The translations under genes and the position numbers were made by a program. 64,000 nt of DNA from positions 1,178,001-1,242,000 of the forward strand of contig NZ_CP015594.1 in NCBI RefSeq assembly GCF_001647675.1, given 5' to 3'. Source of the stretch: Acinetobacter sp. NCu2D-2. GTDB lineage: Bacteria; Pseudomonadota; Gammaproteobacteria; Pseudomonadales; Moraxellaceae. The notes under the pieces are model-generated. The model was not told the origin of the DNA, ran no database searches, and saw nothing but the letters and a program-made list of their open reading frames with translations. Positions 49,427 to 56,587 of this stretch are shown piece after piece; position 1 is the stretch's first letter, and each line of letters opens with the position of its first letter.

Positions 49427-50102
49427 TCAGCATGCTCCAATAAGAAATTGTTAATGAAACTTTGCAAGATGCTTGCAAAGTTTGATCATTATTGCACAAA
49501 AATCGAGGTTTTTTCGAAAATTTCTTATAAGTGGTTAAGAAATTAACTGCAAAATGTGGACACTATAATGAAAAACTTGCAGCGATTTAGCAATGTTAAA
49601 AAATGACATTTCTTCTAATTTGCATTGTTTATGTATTGTAAGCAGGATTGGCAAAAAGGTTTAATCGCATTTTTGTAACTAAAGAAATGAAACGAACCTA
49701 AAACATCCTAACTGTTTTTATTTTGATCAGATTAGCACGACAATTTGTCTTTGAATAATATATTTTTGTCAGTTCGTCACAAATTTTACAATGCTTAAAA
49801 AAATTGAAATACAGATAAAATAAAGATAAGGATATGCTTTCATTTAAATTAAATATTTGAAAATAAAATATATTCTATAAATTATGAAATACTGGTGAAT
49901 CTAATTCTGGTTCTAAAATACTTACTTTGTTCTTGTGAGCAATTTCATGAGTTCCAGACAATTTTATTTATTTTGTATTTAAGAACTTAATTTTTATTTA
50001 AGCCAACTCAATGTTCATTTTATTTCACTTCATACAAAACAATTTAACGGGTCAATGTTTTATAGGTGGCATAAGCTGTTGAAATTTTGAAGTAGCAATA
50101 GA
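49427..50102. other. 676-bp AT-rich gap upstream of aroQ-accBC
   Basis: No convincing protein gene is seen. A 10-bp inverted repeat (49459-49481) lies about 35 bp before the aroQ start. Around 49560-49600 there are TATAAT-like and TTGCTA-like elements that could form the aroQ promoter, and a TATAAT also reads on the plus strand at about 49571. The rest is featureless A/T-rich sequence up to the end of the cdsA-like gene. Confidence 0.5.
49459..49481 (-). other. Hairpin in the aroQ leader region
   Basis: A perfect inverted repeat ACTTTGCAAG/CTTGCAAAGT is separated by ATG. There is no upstream gene for it to terminate, so it may act in the aroQ-accBC leader RNA or as a palindromic protein-binding site. 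Confidence 0.45.
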
Positions 50103-51041
50103 CTAAGACCACCAGTAACGTAGGATATGAAAGAAGATCGGTGCAGAAAAACAAATAGAATCTATACGATCTAACATTCCACCATGTCCTTGTATCATTT
50201 GTCCCCAATCTTTGACCCCGCGGTCGCGTTTGATTGCTGACATGACTAAGCCACCAAAAAAACCAAAAATACAAATGACTAATCCAATACCTGCAGCTTG
50301 AAGATAGTTAAAAGGTGTCAGCCATGACATTGCCACACCGAGTAGCGTCGCAAGTAATATACCGCCTAAAAGTCCTTCAATCGTTTTAGAGGGAGAAAGC
50401 CGAGGTGCGACTTTGTGTTTGCCAAATAATTTACCGCAGACATACTGCAATACGTCTGAGGCTTGCACCACCATAATGAGCCAAATCGCCAACCAAATTT
50501 TTTCACCCTCAAAGCCAGGTAATTTGAGATTGAGTAATGCGGGAACGTGCGAAATACAGAACACGCTAACCATTAAACCCCATTGGATTTTTGACGAACG
50601 CTCAAGAAAACGCATCGTGTCTTCAGTTTTTAAGCTGGCAATGGGTAGCAATAAAAATACATAAAGGGGAATAAAGATTGAATACAACCCGTACCAATCT
50701 ATATAGACCAAATAATATTGATAAGGAATAACAAAATAAAAAGCGATCAGAAGTGGGAGATAATCTCCCATCCGTGTAGGCAATAAACTGATAAATTCTC
50801 TGAGAGCAAAGAGCGAAATCAGCCCAAACAAAATAATAAAAGCTGCCTTACCTAAGAAAATGGCAATCCCCAAGACAATCAGCATCACCCACCAAGCATT
50901 AATTCGGGCAACGAGATTTTCCACGACAGGTGAAGGCTGAACTTTGTGTTTGCGGCGGATAATAGATGCAATCGTTGAGGCAATAATCAGAATGACCGCA
51001 AATATAGCAAACAGTAGAAAAGTGGATTGATGATTGGTCAT
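50103..51041 (-). CDS. CdsA-family phosphatidate cytidylyltransferase (YnbB-like)
   Basis: This 312-aa inner-membrane enzyme makes CDP-diacylglycerol from phosphatidic acid and CTP. About eight hydrophobic helices are followed by the family signature SAIKRDRGVKDWGQMIQGHG and the GGMLDRIDS continuation near the C-terminus, with all the expected basic and acidic residues. It closes a six-gene lipid operon 1 bp after the acyltransferase. By context it corresponds to E. coli YnbB, a CdsA paralogue; a separate housekeeping cdsA is expected elsewhere in the genome. Confidence 0.9.
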   Translation of the reverse strand: MTNHQSTFLLFAIFAVILIIASTIASIIRRKHKVQPSPVVENLVARINAWWVMLIVLGIAIFLGKAAFIILFGLISLFALREFISLLPTRMGDYLPLLIAFYFVIPYQYYLVYIDWYGLYSIFIPLYVFLLLPIASLKTEDTMRFLERSSKIQWGLMVSVFCISHVPALLNLKLPGFEGEKIWLAIWLIMVVQASDVLQYVCGKLFGKHKVAPRLSPSKTIEGLLGGILLATLLGVAMSWLTPFNYLQAAGIGLVICIFGFFGGLVMSAIKRDRGVKDWGQMIQGHGGMLDRIDSICFSAPIFFHILRYWWS

Positions 51042-51042
51042 C

Positions 51043-51699
51043 TTATAAATACTCCACTTCTTTTAATGCCAAAAGTTGTTTTCTAGCCAACTCTAAAAAT
51101 AATGCTTTATCCATATCTTGGGAAACGGCTAAGGGTTGCCCAAAACTAACTGTTGATAATAGAGGAAGAGGAATAAGTGCGCCTTTAGGCATGACTCTTT
51201 TTAAATTTGAAATCCAAACAGGTATAATTTCGACATGAGGATGATTTTGATATAAATGATACAGCCCACTTTTAAAAGCTAAGAGTTCAATATCATCATC
51301 AAGGTTGCGTGTTCCTTCTGGGAAAAAAATGATGGAATCACCAGATTGAAGTACATCTTTGACACTTTGTAGCGGGTCTTGTGTATCTGTTCGCGTGCGC
51401 TGAATGGTAATTCCTGAAAAGGTGTCTTCAATTAGAAAACGGCGAAAACCATCTTTAAGCCAATAGTCAGAAGCTGCGACAGGACGTGTTCGACGACGCA
51501 GTGGTGTTGGGAGAGAAGACCACAATAAAATAAAGTCGATGTGACTATTATGATTGGCATAATAAATACGTTGTTTGAGTTCTGGTTGACAGCCAAACCA
51601 TAAGCTACGTGCACCGGTTAACAGTCGCGCACTACGACGAATCGTAAAAGAAATAAAAGCAGCGAGAGATTGAAATAAAAAGCGTGGTTTATATGCCAT
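51043..51699 (-). CDS. PlsC-type lysophospholipid acyltransferase
   Basis: This 218-aa protein carries the glycerophospholipid acyltransferase motifs NHNSHIDFILLW (HxxxxD form, motif I) and IFFPEGTRNLDDD (motif III). It should acylate a lysophospholipid or lysophosphatidic acid at the membrane face. The short N-terminal hydrophobic region (about 5-20) is a likely membrane anchor. It is encoded between a small membrane protein and the CdsA-like gene, where it could supply phosphatidic acid. Confidence 0.9.
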   Translation of the reverse strand: MAYKPRFLFQSLAAFISFTIRRSARLLTGARSLWFGCQPELKQRIYYANHNSHIDFILLWSSLPTPLRRRTRPVAASDYWLKDGFRRFLIEDTFSGITIQRTRTDTQDPLQSVKDVLQSGDSIIFFPEGTRNLDDDIELLAFKSGLYHLYQNHPHVEIIPVWISNLKRVMPKGALIPLPLLSTVSFGQPLAVSQDMDKALFLELARKQLLALKEVEYL

Positions 51700-51735
51700 A
51701 GGAACGCTGCTCGTGTGAATTAAATTTGAATTGTT

Positions 51736-52158
51736 TTAGATCGTATTTTTATAAGTGCAGACACTGAGTATGAGTAATACATACTGTATCATATTCAGCA
51801 TAATTTGGATTTTAAATAATCGCAAGCAACCCTTTAAACGTAGTGTCCAATCCCGATTCTGCTTATCTGAGGATAATAATTTGAGTGTAGTCAGGGTTTG
51901 GTCTAATTCTTGTGTAAATTGCGGGAGCTGATTTGCTTCTTCTGGTATGTGTTGTAAGAGATTGAAATCAAAATATAAGCGAATAAAGATGTATTGATGT
52001 AGTAACATGATTAAAACAGAAACAATCAATACCGTGCACCAGTAATTGGGCATTAGAAGAATAATCAAGATGGTAAAAAAGAACGCGATATAACCTGAGA
52101 TTAGTAGTGGTAGTGATGATTTTAAAAGTGCTGCCATTGTCTTGATTTGTGTGATCAT
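51736..52158 (-). CDS. Small membrane protein of the lipid operon
   Basis: This 140-aa protein has three likely membrane helices: two near the N-terminus (about 12-33 and 37-56) and one at the C-terminus (LNMIQYVLLILSVCTY). A soluble helical segment lies between them. I do not recognise the family. Its start overlaps the end of the PAP2-phosphatase gene by 4 bp (ATGA), so it is translationally coupled and very likely works with these enzymes. Confidence 0.75.
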   Translation of the reverse strand: MITQIKTMAALLKSSLPLLISGYIAFFFTILIILLMPNYWCTVLIVSVLIMLLHQYIFIRLYFDFNLLQHIPEEANQLPQFTQELDQTLTTLKLLSSDKQNRDWTLRLKGCLRLFKIQIMLNMIQYVLLILSVCTYKNTI

Positions 52159-53537
52159 GGCGCTAGACCTTTAAGTTTTAACTGATAAATTTGTATTTGC
52201 TTAATTTGAGCAGGCTTGAGTACTACATGTGGGCGAGCTTGCGAGATCATTGCTATGGCTTGTTCAATACTGCTGATAGCGCCATGACTTATTAGATAAG
52301 CACATAAGATTGCACTACTTCGTGAATAGCCAAGTGCGCAAAAGAGTAATAGTTTTTGCGGATCTTGCTTAAAATTTAAATTTTTGATTTGAGTATCAAG
52401 TCGTTCTACAGCCTCAGCAAGTTGATTGGCTGCTATTACAGTTAAATCCAAATGTAGATACTGGCAATAAGAACTAGCATCTGATGTCATATGTTCAGAA
52501 AGAGAAACAGGTAGTTCAGCACAACAATCAAAAAGTGCTGAATAGGCTAAGCTCTGTTGAATTGAAGGTAGACGACCCAGATAAATTGCTAAATTCCCTG
52601 AGTGTATAATATATGAATCTTCAGGATGTTTCTGTGTCCAGATCCGTGAATTAAGCCAAGCTAAAGCAATATAAGGCGAAAATAAAATCCAAGAGGCGCT
52701 TGTAAATCGACCATGATTATTTTTTTGGAAGAAATGTGGACGCGCAAAAAAGTACGCGAGCGCAACGAGTAGTAAACTAAATGCTGGATAGAGAAGCCAA
52801 AGTGCCCAAGATTGAAGATGGAGACTCAGTACAGTAAGCAGAATCACACCAATTAAATATAAAAGACCAAGTTTGATATGTTTTAAACTCAGTTTTAGAC
52901 CCGATTGCCAAGGTGCTTTAGCGTGAATAGGAAAAAGCCATAAACAGAGTGCACCGACAAGAAGTCCCGTAGGAACATCAATAAAATGATGCTGCCATGT
53001 AGTGAGTACAGAAATCCCAATCAGCAGAGACCAAATATCGACTAGATTTTTGAAATAACCATTGCTATGACGGCGATAAAAATCCCAAAGGATAACTAAA
53101 AGCACAATATGTAGCGAAGGTGCTTGATTAAAAGGCTGGTCAAAACTCATTAAAATATCAAACCAATGACCAAAAAAACCTTCTATAGACGGGCGTTCAA
53201 AACTAAATGCAAGTGGATAAATAAAAAAGCAGGTAACTGAAATGAGCTGCGCAAAAAGCAATCGCAAACTCTGTTGTTTTAATTCAAATTTATTGCAACA
53301 GAGTAAAAGTGATAGTCCATAAAACAGATCAATCGACCAATAAGGCACAATGCTCCAAGACCAAATGGGAATGTTTTTTTCCCACGCAAAGACAACACTT
53401 GGAACATGAGTTAATGAAGAAGCATATTGATTGGCTAGTCCATAGCTCCAAAAGAAGAAAGGTGCAAGGAAGAGCAAAATAATAACACCATATTTCCATG
53501 TTCCATTTTCTCGAGGCATATCATCGATATTCTGCAT
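52155..53537 (-). CDS. PAP2-dual-specificity phosphatase fusion (YnbD-like)
   Basis: This 460-aa membrane protein has multiple helices (about residues 15-290) with a PAP2-type lipid phosphatase or inositolphosphotransferase core. Landmarks are the APSLHIVLLVILWDFYRRH segment and a downstream HHFIDVPTGLLVG. A cytoplasmic dual-specificity phosphatase domain (about 310-455) follows, with FCALGYSRSSA, a CX5R loop. The His usually before the Cys is Phe. The architecture equals E. coli YnbD. It could remove phosphate from a lipid intermediate. Confidence 0.85.
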   Translation of the reverse strand: MQNIDDMPRENGTWKYGVIILLFLAPFFFWSYGLANQYASSLTHVPSVVFAWEKNIPIWSWSIVPYWSIDLFYGLSLLLCCNKFELKQQSLRLLFAQLISVTCFFIYPLAFSFERPSIEGFFGHWFDILMSFDQPFNQAPSLHIVLLVILWDFYRRHSNGYFKNLVDIWSLLIGISVLTTWQHHFIDVPTGLLVGALCLWLFPIHAKAPWQSGLKLSLKHIKLGLLYLIGVILLTVLSLHLQSWALWLLYPAFSLLLVALAYFFARPHFFQKNNHGRFTSASWILFSPYIALAWLNSRIWTQKHPEDSYIIHSGNLAIYLGRLPSIQQSLAYSALFDCCAELPVSLSEHMTSDASSYCQYLHLDLTVIAANQLAEAVERLDTQIKNLNFKQDPQKLLLFCALGYSRSSAILCAYLISHGAISSIEQAIAMISQARPHVVLKPAQIKQIQIYQLKLKGLAP

Positions 53538-53558
53538 AATTGAATACTGCTTTAATCA

Positions 53559-55319
53559 TTATTTTTGAATTTTTCGAGCCACGGAAACGGTGAAAATGCC
53601 AAATTCATCGATACATTGGTCAATTTTTTCGAATCCCTCAGCTTCAACTAGAGCATCCATTTCAGCTTGTGAGCGTAAGCGCATGACCCATGCTTGACCT
53701 TGACGATGTGAACTTAACGCACGGGCTATAAACTCTTGCTGCGGATGCCAAATTTGTCCTGTATATAACAGATAACCTTCATCTTGCATGGCTTGGTAGA
53801 TGCCTCTTAATGATTGACGAATGAGTGCATTGTCGCTGAAGAGTTCATATAAGCCTGAAACGACAGCAAAATTGACTTTTGGTTCAGTGCTGGCTAATGA
53901 CTGCTCATCAAATGCATCAGCTTGAATAAACTGAACGGTGTCACTTAGTCCGCGTTCTCGAATTAATTTTTGACCGGATTCCACATTAATCGGACTGTAG
54001 TCTCGTAATGTCACTGATTTTGGTGGCACACTTAGAGCATGAATTGCATCTAAAATATAACGGCCATGACCCGCTGCAATATCCATCACGTGGAGTTCTT
54101 TGCCTTGTTTTAAAAGTGTGTTGGCATATTGCGTAAAGAGTTGTTCAATATGTTGCTTGCGCACACGAATGCCGCGCCAGCCAATTGCATTTAAATAGTA
54201 ATGGTCGATTAATTTACCGATGAGGTTATGACTTTCAGGTTGGTTGCGATATACAAAATCGAGGGTACTGCCTGAGTCGTATCCGGTTTGTTCTCCAATT
54301 TCTAAGCCTCTAGAAAAATGGCTTCCAATTTTTAAATTCTGTTTCGTTAAATCCCAGAAACGCTGCTTTAAAGAGCCTTCTGGAAGATGAGTGGATAGTT
54401 GTTCGGCTACAGCGCAACTGTGACCAATTTTATCTGCATGAAGCAGCTCAGGTGCTGTATAGGGTTGCTTAAAACATTGCTGAATAAAGCGCCGTATTTT
54501 CTCAACGGCAATAGCACGGTCTTTTTCACCCAATGTATCGTGATAGAAACCCTCTAATACATGAAACTCTTTTAAGGGATTGGGTAATTTGTCAAAGAAA
54601 GCCTTTTGAGGTTTTTGATGAACGACAAAGTCTGCACCTGAACTGAGGACTTGAGTGGGCACATAAATATGTGCTGCATCTTCCACGATACGCTTTGATG
54701 CTTCATAGAGTCCTAAAAGCATACGAACCGAAATCGCTCGGGCAATTTTAGGATCGTGCTCGTAGCTTTGAGAACGGTCACGGTCATGGGTGAGCATCTT
54801 CGCTTTCACATAGCTATTCACAAAAAAATTACCGCGTATTTTTTGCATCGCGGTTAAGCCTTGTTTAGCGAAAGGGATATATAACTTAATATCAAAAGCA
54901 GGTGAGGCTAAACATAAGGCACGTATCTTTGGCGCATAGTCATGTACCCATGTCGCAGCCAAGACTGCCCCAACACTTTGAGCCACAACTGCGATATTTT
55001 GTGGTGCAATGCCATAGTGTTGTTGTAGATGTTTTACAAAAAATTGAATGTCTTTCACACAAGCGGAAAAACTGGGTGCATCGCCACGTTCACCGGGCGA
55101 ATTGCCATGACCGCGTGCATCCCAAGCAAAAAAATCAAAATCATCAAGCTGTAGTTCATTGACTAAGTGAGCCATACGGTCTGAATGCTCATGTCCGCGA
55201 TGAAAAAGTAAAATTGCTTTTCGAGCAGCATTATTTTGGTTGTGCGAACTCGACCAATGTTGGTAAAAAAGCGGTGTGCCATCATGTGTAATAAATTGAT
55301 TTTGATTATTTTTATACAT
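53559..55319 (-). CDS. Alpha/beta hydrolase-methyltransferase fusion (YnbC-like)
   Basis: This 586-aa two-domain protein joins a lysophospholipase-like alpha/beta hydrolase to a class I SAM methyltransferase. The hydrolase (about residues 1-290) has its nucleophile elbow as AQSVGA and its His in EGFYHDTLGE. In the methyltransferase (about 300-586), motif I VMDIAAGHGRYILDAI begins near 411. Both catalytic cores look intact. The fusion matches E. coli YnbC. A natural reading is acyl hydrolysis or transfer plus methylation of the lipid made by its neighbours. Confidence 0.88.
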   Translation of the reverse strand: MYKNNQNQFITHDGTPLFYQHWSSSHNQNNAARKAILLFHRGHEHSDRMAHLVNELQLDDFDFFAWDARGHGNSPGERGDAPSFSACVKDIQFFVKHLQQHYGIAPQNIAVVAQSVGAVLAATWVHDYAPKIRALCLASPAFDIKLYIPFAKQGLTAMQKIRGNFFVNSYVKAKMLTHDRDRSQSYEHDPKIARAISVRMLLGLYEASKRIVEDAAHIYVPTQVLSSGADFVVHQKPQKAFFDKLPNPLKEFHVLEGFYHDTLGEKDRAIAVEKIRRFIQQCFKQPYTAPELLHADKIGHSCAVAEQLSTHLPEGSLKQRFWDLTKQNLKIGSHFSRGLEIGEQTGYDSGSTLDFVYRNQPESHNLIGKLIDHYYLNAIGWRGIRVRKQHIEQLFTQYANTLLKQGKELHVMDIAAGHGRYILDAIHALSVPPKSVTLRDYSPINVESGQKLIRERGLSDTVQFIQADAFDEQSLASTEPKVNFAVVSGLYELFSDNALIRQSLRGIYQAMQDEGYLLYTGQIWHPQQEFIARALSSHRQGQAWVMRLRSQAEMDALVEAEGFEKIDQCIDEFGIFTVSVARKIQK

Positions 55320-55344
55320 GGCATTATTCCTTATTTTTAAAAAT

Positions 55345-55971
55345 CTAAGCCAATGAAAGTCTAATTCGATTAATGACCGTCCAAATGCAAAGTATGCTGA
55401 TGATGGCGAGCAAGCCGTTAATAATTAAACTTTGTAGTTCAGTTGCTAAGCCATAAAGCTCGAAAGTTAAAAGCAGTATAGTGATAGCACTCAACCAAAA
55501 AGCACGGTCACTTTTACCCATTGGACCTGCATAGCAGCGTGGTTTATGGATGAGTGTGGCGGTAACACCTGTAAATTCCGTTAGAACGGCGAGGAAGCAA
55601 AGCAATAACAGTAAATGGGCTTGAATGGGTGAGATGACGATTAAGCAAATATATAGGGCAGTATCTGAGATGACATCGCAAAGCTCATTGAGAAAAGCGC
55701 CCAAATCGGACTGCTGCAAAAATTCACGAGCCAACATGCCGTCTATAGCATTGAATGCCATGCGAATCAGCATCCAAATTGGAAATAATAAGATCCAGTA
55801 ATTCACTGCATGATTTGAGTAATAGCAATAAAGACCGACACTTAAACCAACAGACAACAACATAGCTGCCAATGTGACATGATTTGCCTGAATGCCGAGT
55901 TTATACATCCCGCTGACTAAAGGTCGGAGCATATTTTGAAATGCAGGTTTCAGCTGATATATAGAGGGCAT
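55345..55971 (-). CDS. CDP-alcohol phosphatidyltransferase (YnbA-like)
   Basis: This 208-aa inner-membrane enzyme has about six helices and the CDP-alcohol phosphotransferase motif, here NAIDGMLAR-x8-GAFLNELCD. The first and third aspartates of the canonical D-x2-DG-x2-AR-x8-G-x3-D-x3-D are Asn. The same change appears in E. coli YnbA as I remember it, which suggests a special subfamily rather than decay. It would join a CDP-diacylglycerol to an unknown alcohol. It is the first gene of the six-gene operon. Confidence 0.88.
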   Translation of the reverse strand: MPSIYQLKPAFQNMLRPLVSGMYKLGIQANHVTLAAMLLSVGLSVGLYCYYSNHAVNYWILLFPIWMLIRMAFNAIDGMLAREFLQQSDLGAFLNELCDVISDTALYICLIVISPIQAHLLLLLCFLAVLTEFTGVTATLIHKPRCYAGPMGKSDRAFWLSAITILLLTFELYGLATELQSLIINGLLAIISILCIWTVINRIRLSLA

Positions 55972-56119: not shown

Positions 56120-56587
56120 ATGACTCCTGCCTGTAAATTATTATCGAGCAAAAAAATCAATTACAGCATTCATGAATATACACATGATGTAAATGCCAAA
56201 AGTTTTGGTTTGGAAGCGGCAGAAAAATTAGGTCTACATGTCCATGAAGTGTTTAAAACATTATTGGTCACGGACGAAAAACAATATTTTGTCGCAATTT
56301 TACCTGTCCATCATCAATTAAACCTCAAGAAAGTGGCGCATGCATTTGGCTGTAAAAAACTACAAATGGCAGACCCAAAACACGCAGAACGCTTAACAGG
56401 ATATTTGGTTGGTGGAATTAGTCCGATTGGACAAAAGAAACGTTTAAAAACAGTGATAGATGCATCGGCTGAAACACTTGAGAAAATGTATGTCAGTGGT
56501 GGTAAGCGTGGTTTAGACATTGGCTTAAAGCCACAAGATTTATCCGATGTACTGTCAGCATCTTTTGTAGATATTGTGGATGAATAA
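56120..56587 (+). CDS. ybaK: Cys-tRNA(Pro) deacylase YbaK
   Basis: This 155-aa trans-editing protein hydrolyses Cys mischarged on tRNA-Pro. It has the YbaK/EbsC fold: [22 protein letters not shown] at the start, [12 protein letters not shown] with the key Lys (KTL), [14 protein letters not shown], and GKRGLDIGL near the end. Length is typical of YbaK. It is transcribed alone, divergent from the lipid operon with a gap of about 150 bp. Confidence 0.93.

Follow-up and report, generated by a model that had tools for sequence, protein, structure and literature searches.

A conserved six-gene operon of Acinetobacter related to Escherichia coli ynbABCD as a candidate second CDP-diacylglycerol pathway

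The window analyzed here is a 64,000-nucleotide stretch of the 3.05-Mb genome of Acinetobacter sp. NCu2D-2 (contig C1, positions 1178001–1242000; GC content 38.6%), which carries on its minus strand, from 55971 to 50103, a run of six open reading frames (ORFs) related to the ynbABCD cluster of Escherichia coli. In transcription order we call these genes A, C, D, M, P and B (Table 1); the genomes compared bear G numbers (G000 being the host) and the loci or records compared bear L numbers. Successive genes are spaced by 25 bases, 21 bases, a four-base ATGA overlap between D and M, 36 bases and 1 base, so that the tight minus-strand run described in an initial annotation of this DNA was recovered from the ORFs, overlap included. 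The proposed relation to ynbABCD also held, homologues of YnbA, YnbB, YnbC and YnbD being adjacent in the window. The host has its own PgsA and PssA and a second CdsA (C1 1127655) outside the cluster, which places the six-gene set apart from the housekeeping route.

Table 1 Features of the six-gene operon, with positions in the window (aa, amino acids; SAM, S-adenosylmethionine; CDP, cytidine diphosphate)
Feature	Position	Strand	Basis
A, YnbA-like relative of CDP-alcohol phosphotransferases, 208 aa	55345..55971	-	PF01066, 43.6 bits; best NCBIfam model archaetidylinositol phosphate synthase
Altered signature of A, residues 74-103: N74xxD77G78xxA81R82...G91xxxN95xxxD99xxxD103	55663..55752	-	Alignment of 24 sequences
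C, YnbC-like fusion, 586 aa: monoacylglycerol-lipase-like hydrolase (~aa 1-286) and Methyltransf_20 SAM methyltransferase (aa 275-583)	53559..55319	-	
D, YnbD-like membrane protein, 460 aa: PAP2-like half and dual-specificity phosphatase	52155..53537	-	PF00782; PAP2/PAP2_3 in relatives; model pLDDT 89.8
CX5R loop C400-R406, dual-specificity phosphatase of D	52320..52340	-	C400 and R406 invariant in 21 sequences
M, 140-aa membrane protein of no known family	51736..52158	-	Alignment of same-place proteins; hydropathy
P, PlsC-type acyltransferase, 218 aa; HX4D and EGTR motifs by eye	51043..51699	-	PF01553, 64.3 bits
B, YnbB-type phosphatidate cytidylyltransferase, 312 aa	50103..51041	-	PF01148, 241.5 bits

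Protein A scored above the Pfam cut-off for the CDP-alcohol phosphotransferase family (PF01066, cut-off 22 bits), bearing out its initial description as a CDP-alcohol-type protein. Protein C matched PF12146 (228.2 bits) and PF12147 (462.8 bits). Its hydrolase half has the fold of monoacylglycerol lipase with the Ser-Asp-His residues in place and, in most sequences, a nucleophile motif A/G-Q-S-V-G whose first place is more commonly A than G; a match to lysophospholipase L2 was weak (45 bits, cut-off 362). Matches bearing on the substrate of the methyltransferase half were also weak (cyclopropane synthase, E = 0.025; type 12 methyltransferase, E = 0.0043; 3ocj in the Foldseek list), and fold searches with this half and with the PAP2-like half of D gave lists filled by matches to other domains. 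Protein D passed the cut-off for the dual-specificity phosphatase family (PF00782, 44.6 bits, cut-off 33.5) and fell below that for PAP2 (17.2 bits, cut-off 27.2). Among the 21 aligned D sequences, however, 15 matched PF01569 and 12 matched PAP2_3 (E ≤ 0.1), and the PSLH and HHxxD motifs are kept in the PAP2-like half, while the CX5R loop of the phosphatase half is one that we take, from knowledge of the family, to be catalytic. Together with P and B, the latter of which has a homologue in the E. coli ynb locus (L087) that scored 178.9 bits, the domains named by the initial annotation were thus found in A, C, P, B and the phosphatase half of D; its PAP2 domain is below the cut-off in D itself and is backed by the relatives.

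Protein M matched nothing above a Pfam cut-off. Its hydropathy, with hydrophobic stretches at residues 14–65 (space for two helices) and 114–137, fits the three helices first proposed, although hydropathy alone does not prove them. It can be aligned with proteins that follow D in other lineages. D64 and R107 do not vary among the 19 sequences aligned, four of which are only 16–19% identical to M, two of these (L088 and L132) having been chosen by position and missed by the profile.

Characterized families matched A below their cut-offs. The best NCBIfam model (Table 1) gave 73 bits against a cut-off of 180, the phosphatidylinositol phosphate (PIP) synthase model NF045883 gave 47 against 170, and PgsA and PssA gave 26.9 (cut-off 109.1) and 19.2 (cut-off 107), respectively; among the best 120 of 5522 relatives, the names, where given, were mostly Acinetobacter. 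In the available text of PMC4634129 (all papers are cited here from partial text), the eight residues of the CDP-alcohol phosphotransferase signature D1xxD2G1xxAR...G2xxxD3xxxD4 are called absolutely conserved, with D1–D3 binding metal and D4 as the likely base; in mycobacterial PIP synthase, Mg-1 lies on D68, D71 and D89 and site 2 on D89 and D93 (PMC6506517). Alignment of A to the latter enzyme (6h53) matches N74, D77, N95 and D99 to the four signature aspartates, so that D1 and D3 are asparagine and the other six signature residues are kept. The same N-D-N-D reading was found in all 133 distinct relatives of A, comprising 120 that scored at least 150 bits and 13 lower-scoring members of a paralogous type, A2; the search patterns preset some positions, and every sequence of this set matched. 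The 120 include the A2-type protein of Vibrio campbellii, itself part of the profile building, and the whole set is drawn mainly from Acinetobacter and Pseudomonas, with other members from alpha-, beta- and other gammaproteobacteria, a fusobacterium and a cyanobacterium. As a control we read all 43 PF01066 places of 13 genomes. Three YnbA-type proteins (host, G012 and G008) had N-D-N-D, and the 40 others, including host PgsA and PssA, had D-D-D-D, 39 of them read by patterns that likewise preset some positions and one, L211, whose loop is longer, by eye from its translation. This wider control gives firmer support to the asparagine/asparagine (N/N) signature of the YnbA family. Positions that contact CDP, and the position of the base, are conserved in A: N30, G78, A81, G91 and D99 are invariant in 24 sequences, and T33 and R82 nearly so.

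The residues that hold the acceptor phosphate are likewise retained. R155 and R195 perform this role for inositol phosphate in mycobacterial PIP synthase (PMC4634129, PMC6506517), and their counterparts in A, R156 and R202, are invariant in 24 sequences. A further residue of that enzyme, R94, which follows D4, is reported to be K or R in inositol-phosphate users (PMC6506517); the corresponding residue of A is V100, and at this place 119 of the 120 higher-scoring relatives have V, I or M and the 13 A2-type proteins have R. No match to inositol-1-phosphate synthase (PF07994/PF01658) was obtained in the host genome, in a search whose PF01658 part was positive in Corynebacterium and whose PF07994 part was not. 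With no synthase gene found and no basic residue at the R94 position, we rejected de novo inositol phosphate as the acceptor, considering it unlikely. We take the acceptor of A to be anionic, probably phosphorylated and other than inositol phosphate, with glycerol phosphate as one possibility. Single neighbors of ynb-type clusters included a glycosyltransferase (Caballeronia; V. sinus) and a short-chain dehydrogenase (Moraxella).

The initial annotation had suggested searching genomes for co-occurrence of all six genes. We examined this in two sets of loci, both found with C as bait: 80 named loci, which are the best 80 of 278 relatives of C in genome contigs and are biased to near relatives (Acinetobacter, Pseudomonas), and a phylum-wide sample, in which the methyltransferase of C was present in 27 of 398 genomes and 13 of 213 genera. 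The order A C D M P B recurred in 75 of the 80 named loci and in 20 of the 26 sampled genomes besides the host. The five remaining named loci, three of which (L015, L019 and L071) end at a contig border, read A C D M (two), C D M P B, A C D, and A C D M plus a detached, reversed P and B; the six remaining genomes had a reversed A with C D (two), A C, A C P B, reversed B P with A C D M, and A C D M B P. D was present in all 80 named loci and in 24 of the 26 genomes. The type strain of Acinetobacter baylyi (L030), a species in laboratory use, has the complete six-gene set. The PlsC-type gene and M, which had first been regarded as extras relative to E. coli, are instead part of the commonest form, and it is the E. 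coli K-12 cluster that lacks both.

More varied arrangements were also found. A Citrobacter plasmid (L088) has A B P C D with a small membrane protein, Shinella has a divergent A, Burkholderia has another reduced or rearranged form, Pseudanabaena has A B P with a methyltransferase that lacks the hydrolase, and Fusobacterium has C A B. Clusters of A, B and P occur in V. campbellii (A B P, with an A2-type A), Caballeronia (B P A) and G008 (L220, 5671–7867). The last, a YnbA-type A with B and P and with no C, D or M, was found via PF01066 rather than C, and G008 was not listed in the methyltransferase search of the phylum-wide sample; it indicates that outside the genus the tie between A and C is weaker and that among A, B and P stronger. 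A-B-P thus looks like a core to which a tailoring set of C, D and M is added.

Several loci had further peculiarities. The Citrobacter cluster lies on an IncF-type plasmid, and an E. coli cluster (L194) lies on a plasmid typed as conjugative IncK2/Z, with insertion sequence genes after C and no D annotated; both are acyltransferase versions. In a small gammaproteobacterial genome (L125, 7208–9361), a 717-aa protein matching WG repeats, with a signal-peptide-like start by eye, is encoded between C and D. On a Moraxella osloensis plasmid (L092, 7980–12339), a patatin-type phospholipase and a short-chain dehydrogenase follow the methyltransferase, and a single reading frame, left without a gene annotation, spans A and the hydrolase part. 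A record titled Diaphorobacter caeni (L035, 64% GC) carries the full six-gene set, with a C protein 69% identical to that of the window, reflecting either intergeneric transfer or a mislabeled record.

We analyzed gene co-occurrence in 175 genomes of the same genus, host included, with thresholds of E ≤ 1e-15 for A, 1e-40 for B and 1e-30 for P. The methyltransferase of C was found in 50 genomes. The A profile matched 63, with strong hits (at least 208 bits) in the identical 50 genomes as C and hits to the A2 paralogue (128–148 bits) in 17, of which 13 were without C. P and B were found in an identical set of 62 genomes, all of them among the 63 with A or A2, consistent with the initial assignment of PlsC- and CdsA-type proteins as partners of YnbA; G469, a draft of ~120 contigs, was the sole genome with A or A2 and without P and B. 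In 13 of the 62 genomes, B was near neither A nor A2 (one of them, G554, has A at a contig end), and four that were read on both sides (G423, G444, G467 and G410, the last with a split C gene) had A C D M together and P B at a separate site. The mutual dependence of A, P and B is therefore not a matter of linkage alone. Because B was never found without A or A2 in these genomes, our data suggest that the native partner of YnbB is the YnbA family.

The A2 loci (e.g., L155, 5151–7686; L160, 4455–7312) encode the N/N signature with a basic residue after D4 and have no C, D or M alongside. B was near A2 in 6 of the 17 A2 genomes. A small membrane protein precedes A2 in the four loci inspected, with no Pfam match in the two scanned.

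We propose that the operon probably encodes a dedicated second pathway through CDP-diacylglycerol (CDP-DAG) with an anionic acceptor. In this scheme P would acylate lysophosphatidate to phosphatidate, B would activate phosphatidate to CDP-DAG, and A would transfer the phosphatidyl group from CDP-DAG to a small acceptor bearing an anionic group, most likely a phosphate monoester. Where D is present, its dual-specificity domain might take a phosphate off the head group and its PAP2-like half a phosphate off a lipid phosphate or pyrophosphate; C might trim an acyl ester and methylate the product or an intermediate, and M may keep D in place. A bolder version, which we offer tentatively and regard as doubtful, is that proteobacteria, a fusobacterium and a cyanobacterium make a new phospholipid class, mostly methylated at some stage and different from phosphatidylethanolamine, phosphatidylglycerol, phosphatidylserine, phosphatidylinositol, phosphatidylcholine and cardiolipin. 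It would be built by a phosphatidyltransferase with a rebuilt metal site (two Asp to Asn), in which the acceptor phosphate is possibly the nucleophile, yielding a pyrophosphate-linked lipid.

Several points weigh against the proposed pathway. All of its reactions, their order and the existence of a product are inferred, and no lipid, substrate or activity has been observed. With D1 and D3 changed, A could be inactive or perform other chemistry. The presence of PTPMT1, a lipid phosphatase, among the best fold matches of the phosphatase half of D speaks for the pathway, but this match is tied with many protein phosphatases. D and M are absent from L089, L090, L126, L127 and the A-B-P forms, and the phosphatase step is accordingly either not universal or carried out by another enzyme in clusters that lack D. 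P is absent from the E. coli and Fusobacterium clusters, and L126 consists of A and C only, without P and B. No head-group-making gene recurring beside the cluster was seen in the loci whose neighbors were inspected, a non-systematic survey, and no obvious head-group enzyme was seen among the neighbors of isolated P-B pairs. The Fisher value of the co-occurrence (3.9e-47) overstates independence, since the genomes share ancestry, and is not to be read as a probability.

Other explanations place the same genes in different roles. The cluster might serve repair or remodeling of phospholipids, with C and D degrading damaged or lyso lipids, P and B rebuilding CDP-DAG and A returning it to an ordinary phospholipid. 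The lipase-like half of C with its weak lysophospholipase L2 match, the acyltransferase P, the C A B cluster of Fusobacterium and the patatin-type phospholipase of Moraxella would all suit such a cycle, which nevertheless leaves unexplained the methyltransferase, a CDP-alcohol-type protein distinct from PgsA and PssA, and the A-B-P clusters without a hydrolase (Caballeronia, V. campbellii, G008); we judge it unlikely. A duplicated housekeeping route to phosphatidylglycerol or phosphatidylserine could draw on the distant relationship of A to PgsA and PssA and on glycerol phosphate as a possible acceptor. The scores of A against both models are far below their cut-offs, the best models are inositol-phosphate-type synthases, and host PgsA and PssA read D/D/D/D where A reads N/D/N/D; on these model scores and the signature we set this route aside as very unlikely. 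It is also conceivable that A is no longer a catalyst, the Asp-to-Asn changes having left a subunit that binds CDP-DAG and delivers it to another protein of the cluster. That two of the eight signature residues, both of them metal ligands, are changed in all 133 relatives speaks for loss of catalysis, yet D99, D77, the acceptor arginines and the residues contacting CDP vary little or not at all, as would be expected of a working enzyme, and the cluster contains no other phosphatidyltransferase. We regard this as the least probable of the explanations considered.

A pyrophosphate-linked glycolipid precursor, diacylglycerol-pyrophosphate-sugar, is an alternative with links to published work. Here the acceptor phosphate would attack CDP-DAG, as for the E. 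coli glycolipid MPIase, whose precursor would be N-acetylglucosamine (GlcNAc)-pyrophosphate-diacylglycerol, and two asparagines in place of aspartates would reduce the negative charge near an anionic nucleophile; A, with its N/N signature and retained phosphate-binding arginines, is compatible with this. According to the available text of PMC6362211, overproduction of YnbB raises MPIase, and a compound I forms from phosphatidate, cytidine triphosphate and GlcNAc-1-phosphate when membranes of cdsA8 or CdsA-overproducing cells, or partially purified CdsA8, are supplied. The same text states that MPIase was not significantly changed by ynbB deletion and reports, without showing the data, a failure of YnbB to complement cdsA. 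Its authors attribute compound I to the action of CdsA, so that YnbA would not be required. The review PMC7018664, in the part available, describes YnbB as a backup for MPIase that makes CDP-DAG in vitro. In a transposon screen of cells making a single form of enterobacterial common antigen, the phosphoglyceride-linked form, ynbB had few insertions, but its authors report ynbB to be dispensable for that form (PMC8609368, as far as available). A general backup enzyme would also not be expected to follow A or A2 as B does in all of the 175 genomes that contain it. We consider such a precursor quite unlikely to be the product, a little more so than repair. If instead the new-class reading is true, the MPIase activity published for YnbB would be a glimpse of this pathway from the side.

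Analyses of the operon's surroundings were largely negative. Searches of the window gave no tRNA and nothing that reached Rfam gathering scores. Promoter-like sites numbered 18 against 22.3 in shuffled sequences and terminator-like sites 12 against 5.2; none of the listed minus-strand terminator-like sites falls in the gap after B. Between the operon end and an aroQ-type gene lie 676 bases (49427–50102) with no ORF of at least 80 aa and no Rfam match, including a 12-pair hairpin on the plus strand at 49457–49483. On the other side, the operon adjoins a YbaK-type tRNA-editing gene (56120–56587, plus strand), and look-alikes of this gene were seen by eye beside isolated P-B pairs of the same genus (L195, L198 and L201), which hints at an older site of P-B. 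A defense system was set aside on the lack of a PADLOC match for the six proteins, and phage cargo on the lack of a match for A in phage records; in PHROGs, a scan of five of the proteins gave one match, an esterase/lipase for C.

Beyond the initial annotation, these analyses reveal two physically separable sub-modules that co-occur and the N/N signature of YnbA, which offers a cheap marker for the YnbA subfamily and a direct probe of the two-metal site of CDP-alcohol phosphotransferases. The co-occurrence names a core to express (A, B and P, then C, D and M) and a protein to purify (YnbA), and the acceptor is narrowed to an anionic compound, probably not inositol phosphate.

The literature searched, largely without subscription journals, assigns no product to the whole operon, in agreement with the initial statement that ynbABCD has none; that statement is not fully right for YnbB, for which CDP-DAG and MPIase activities are published. 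The E. coli K-12 locus has homologues of A, B, C and D with equal domain fusions and the N/N signature in YnbA, but its order is A B C D rather than A C D M P B, and it has no PlsC-type or M gene; this four-gene form, with at least 80% of the length matched, is present in 4242 of 5426 complete E. coli genomes. The closest characterized relatives of A that we found are PIP synthase (PgsA1; 58 bits with the family profile) and archaetidylinositol-phosphate synthase, with which A shares the acceptor-phosphate arginines, while differing in its asparagines at D1 and D3, in V, I or M at the R94 position and in scores below the family cut-offs. B is a cytidylyltransferase of the same type as the YnbB that, with CdsA, figures in MPIase biosynthesis, although the MPIase reports concern E. 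coli, mostly under overproduction, and B of the window is tied to A and P. Likewise, the C-terminal half of D, with its CX5R loop, matches PTPMT1-type lipid phosphatases in fold, in a tie with protein phosphatases, and differs in its fusion to a PAP2-like membrane half, and the N-terminal half of C has the fold of monoacylglycerol lipase and differs in its A/G-Q-S-V-G motif and its fusion to a methyltransferase.

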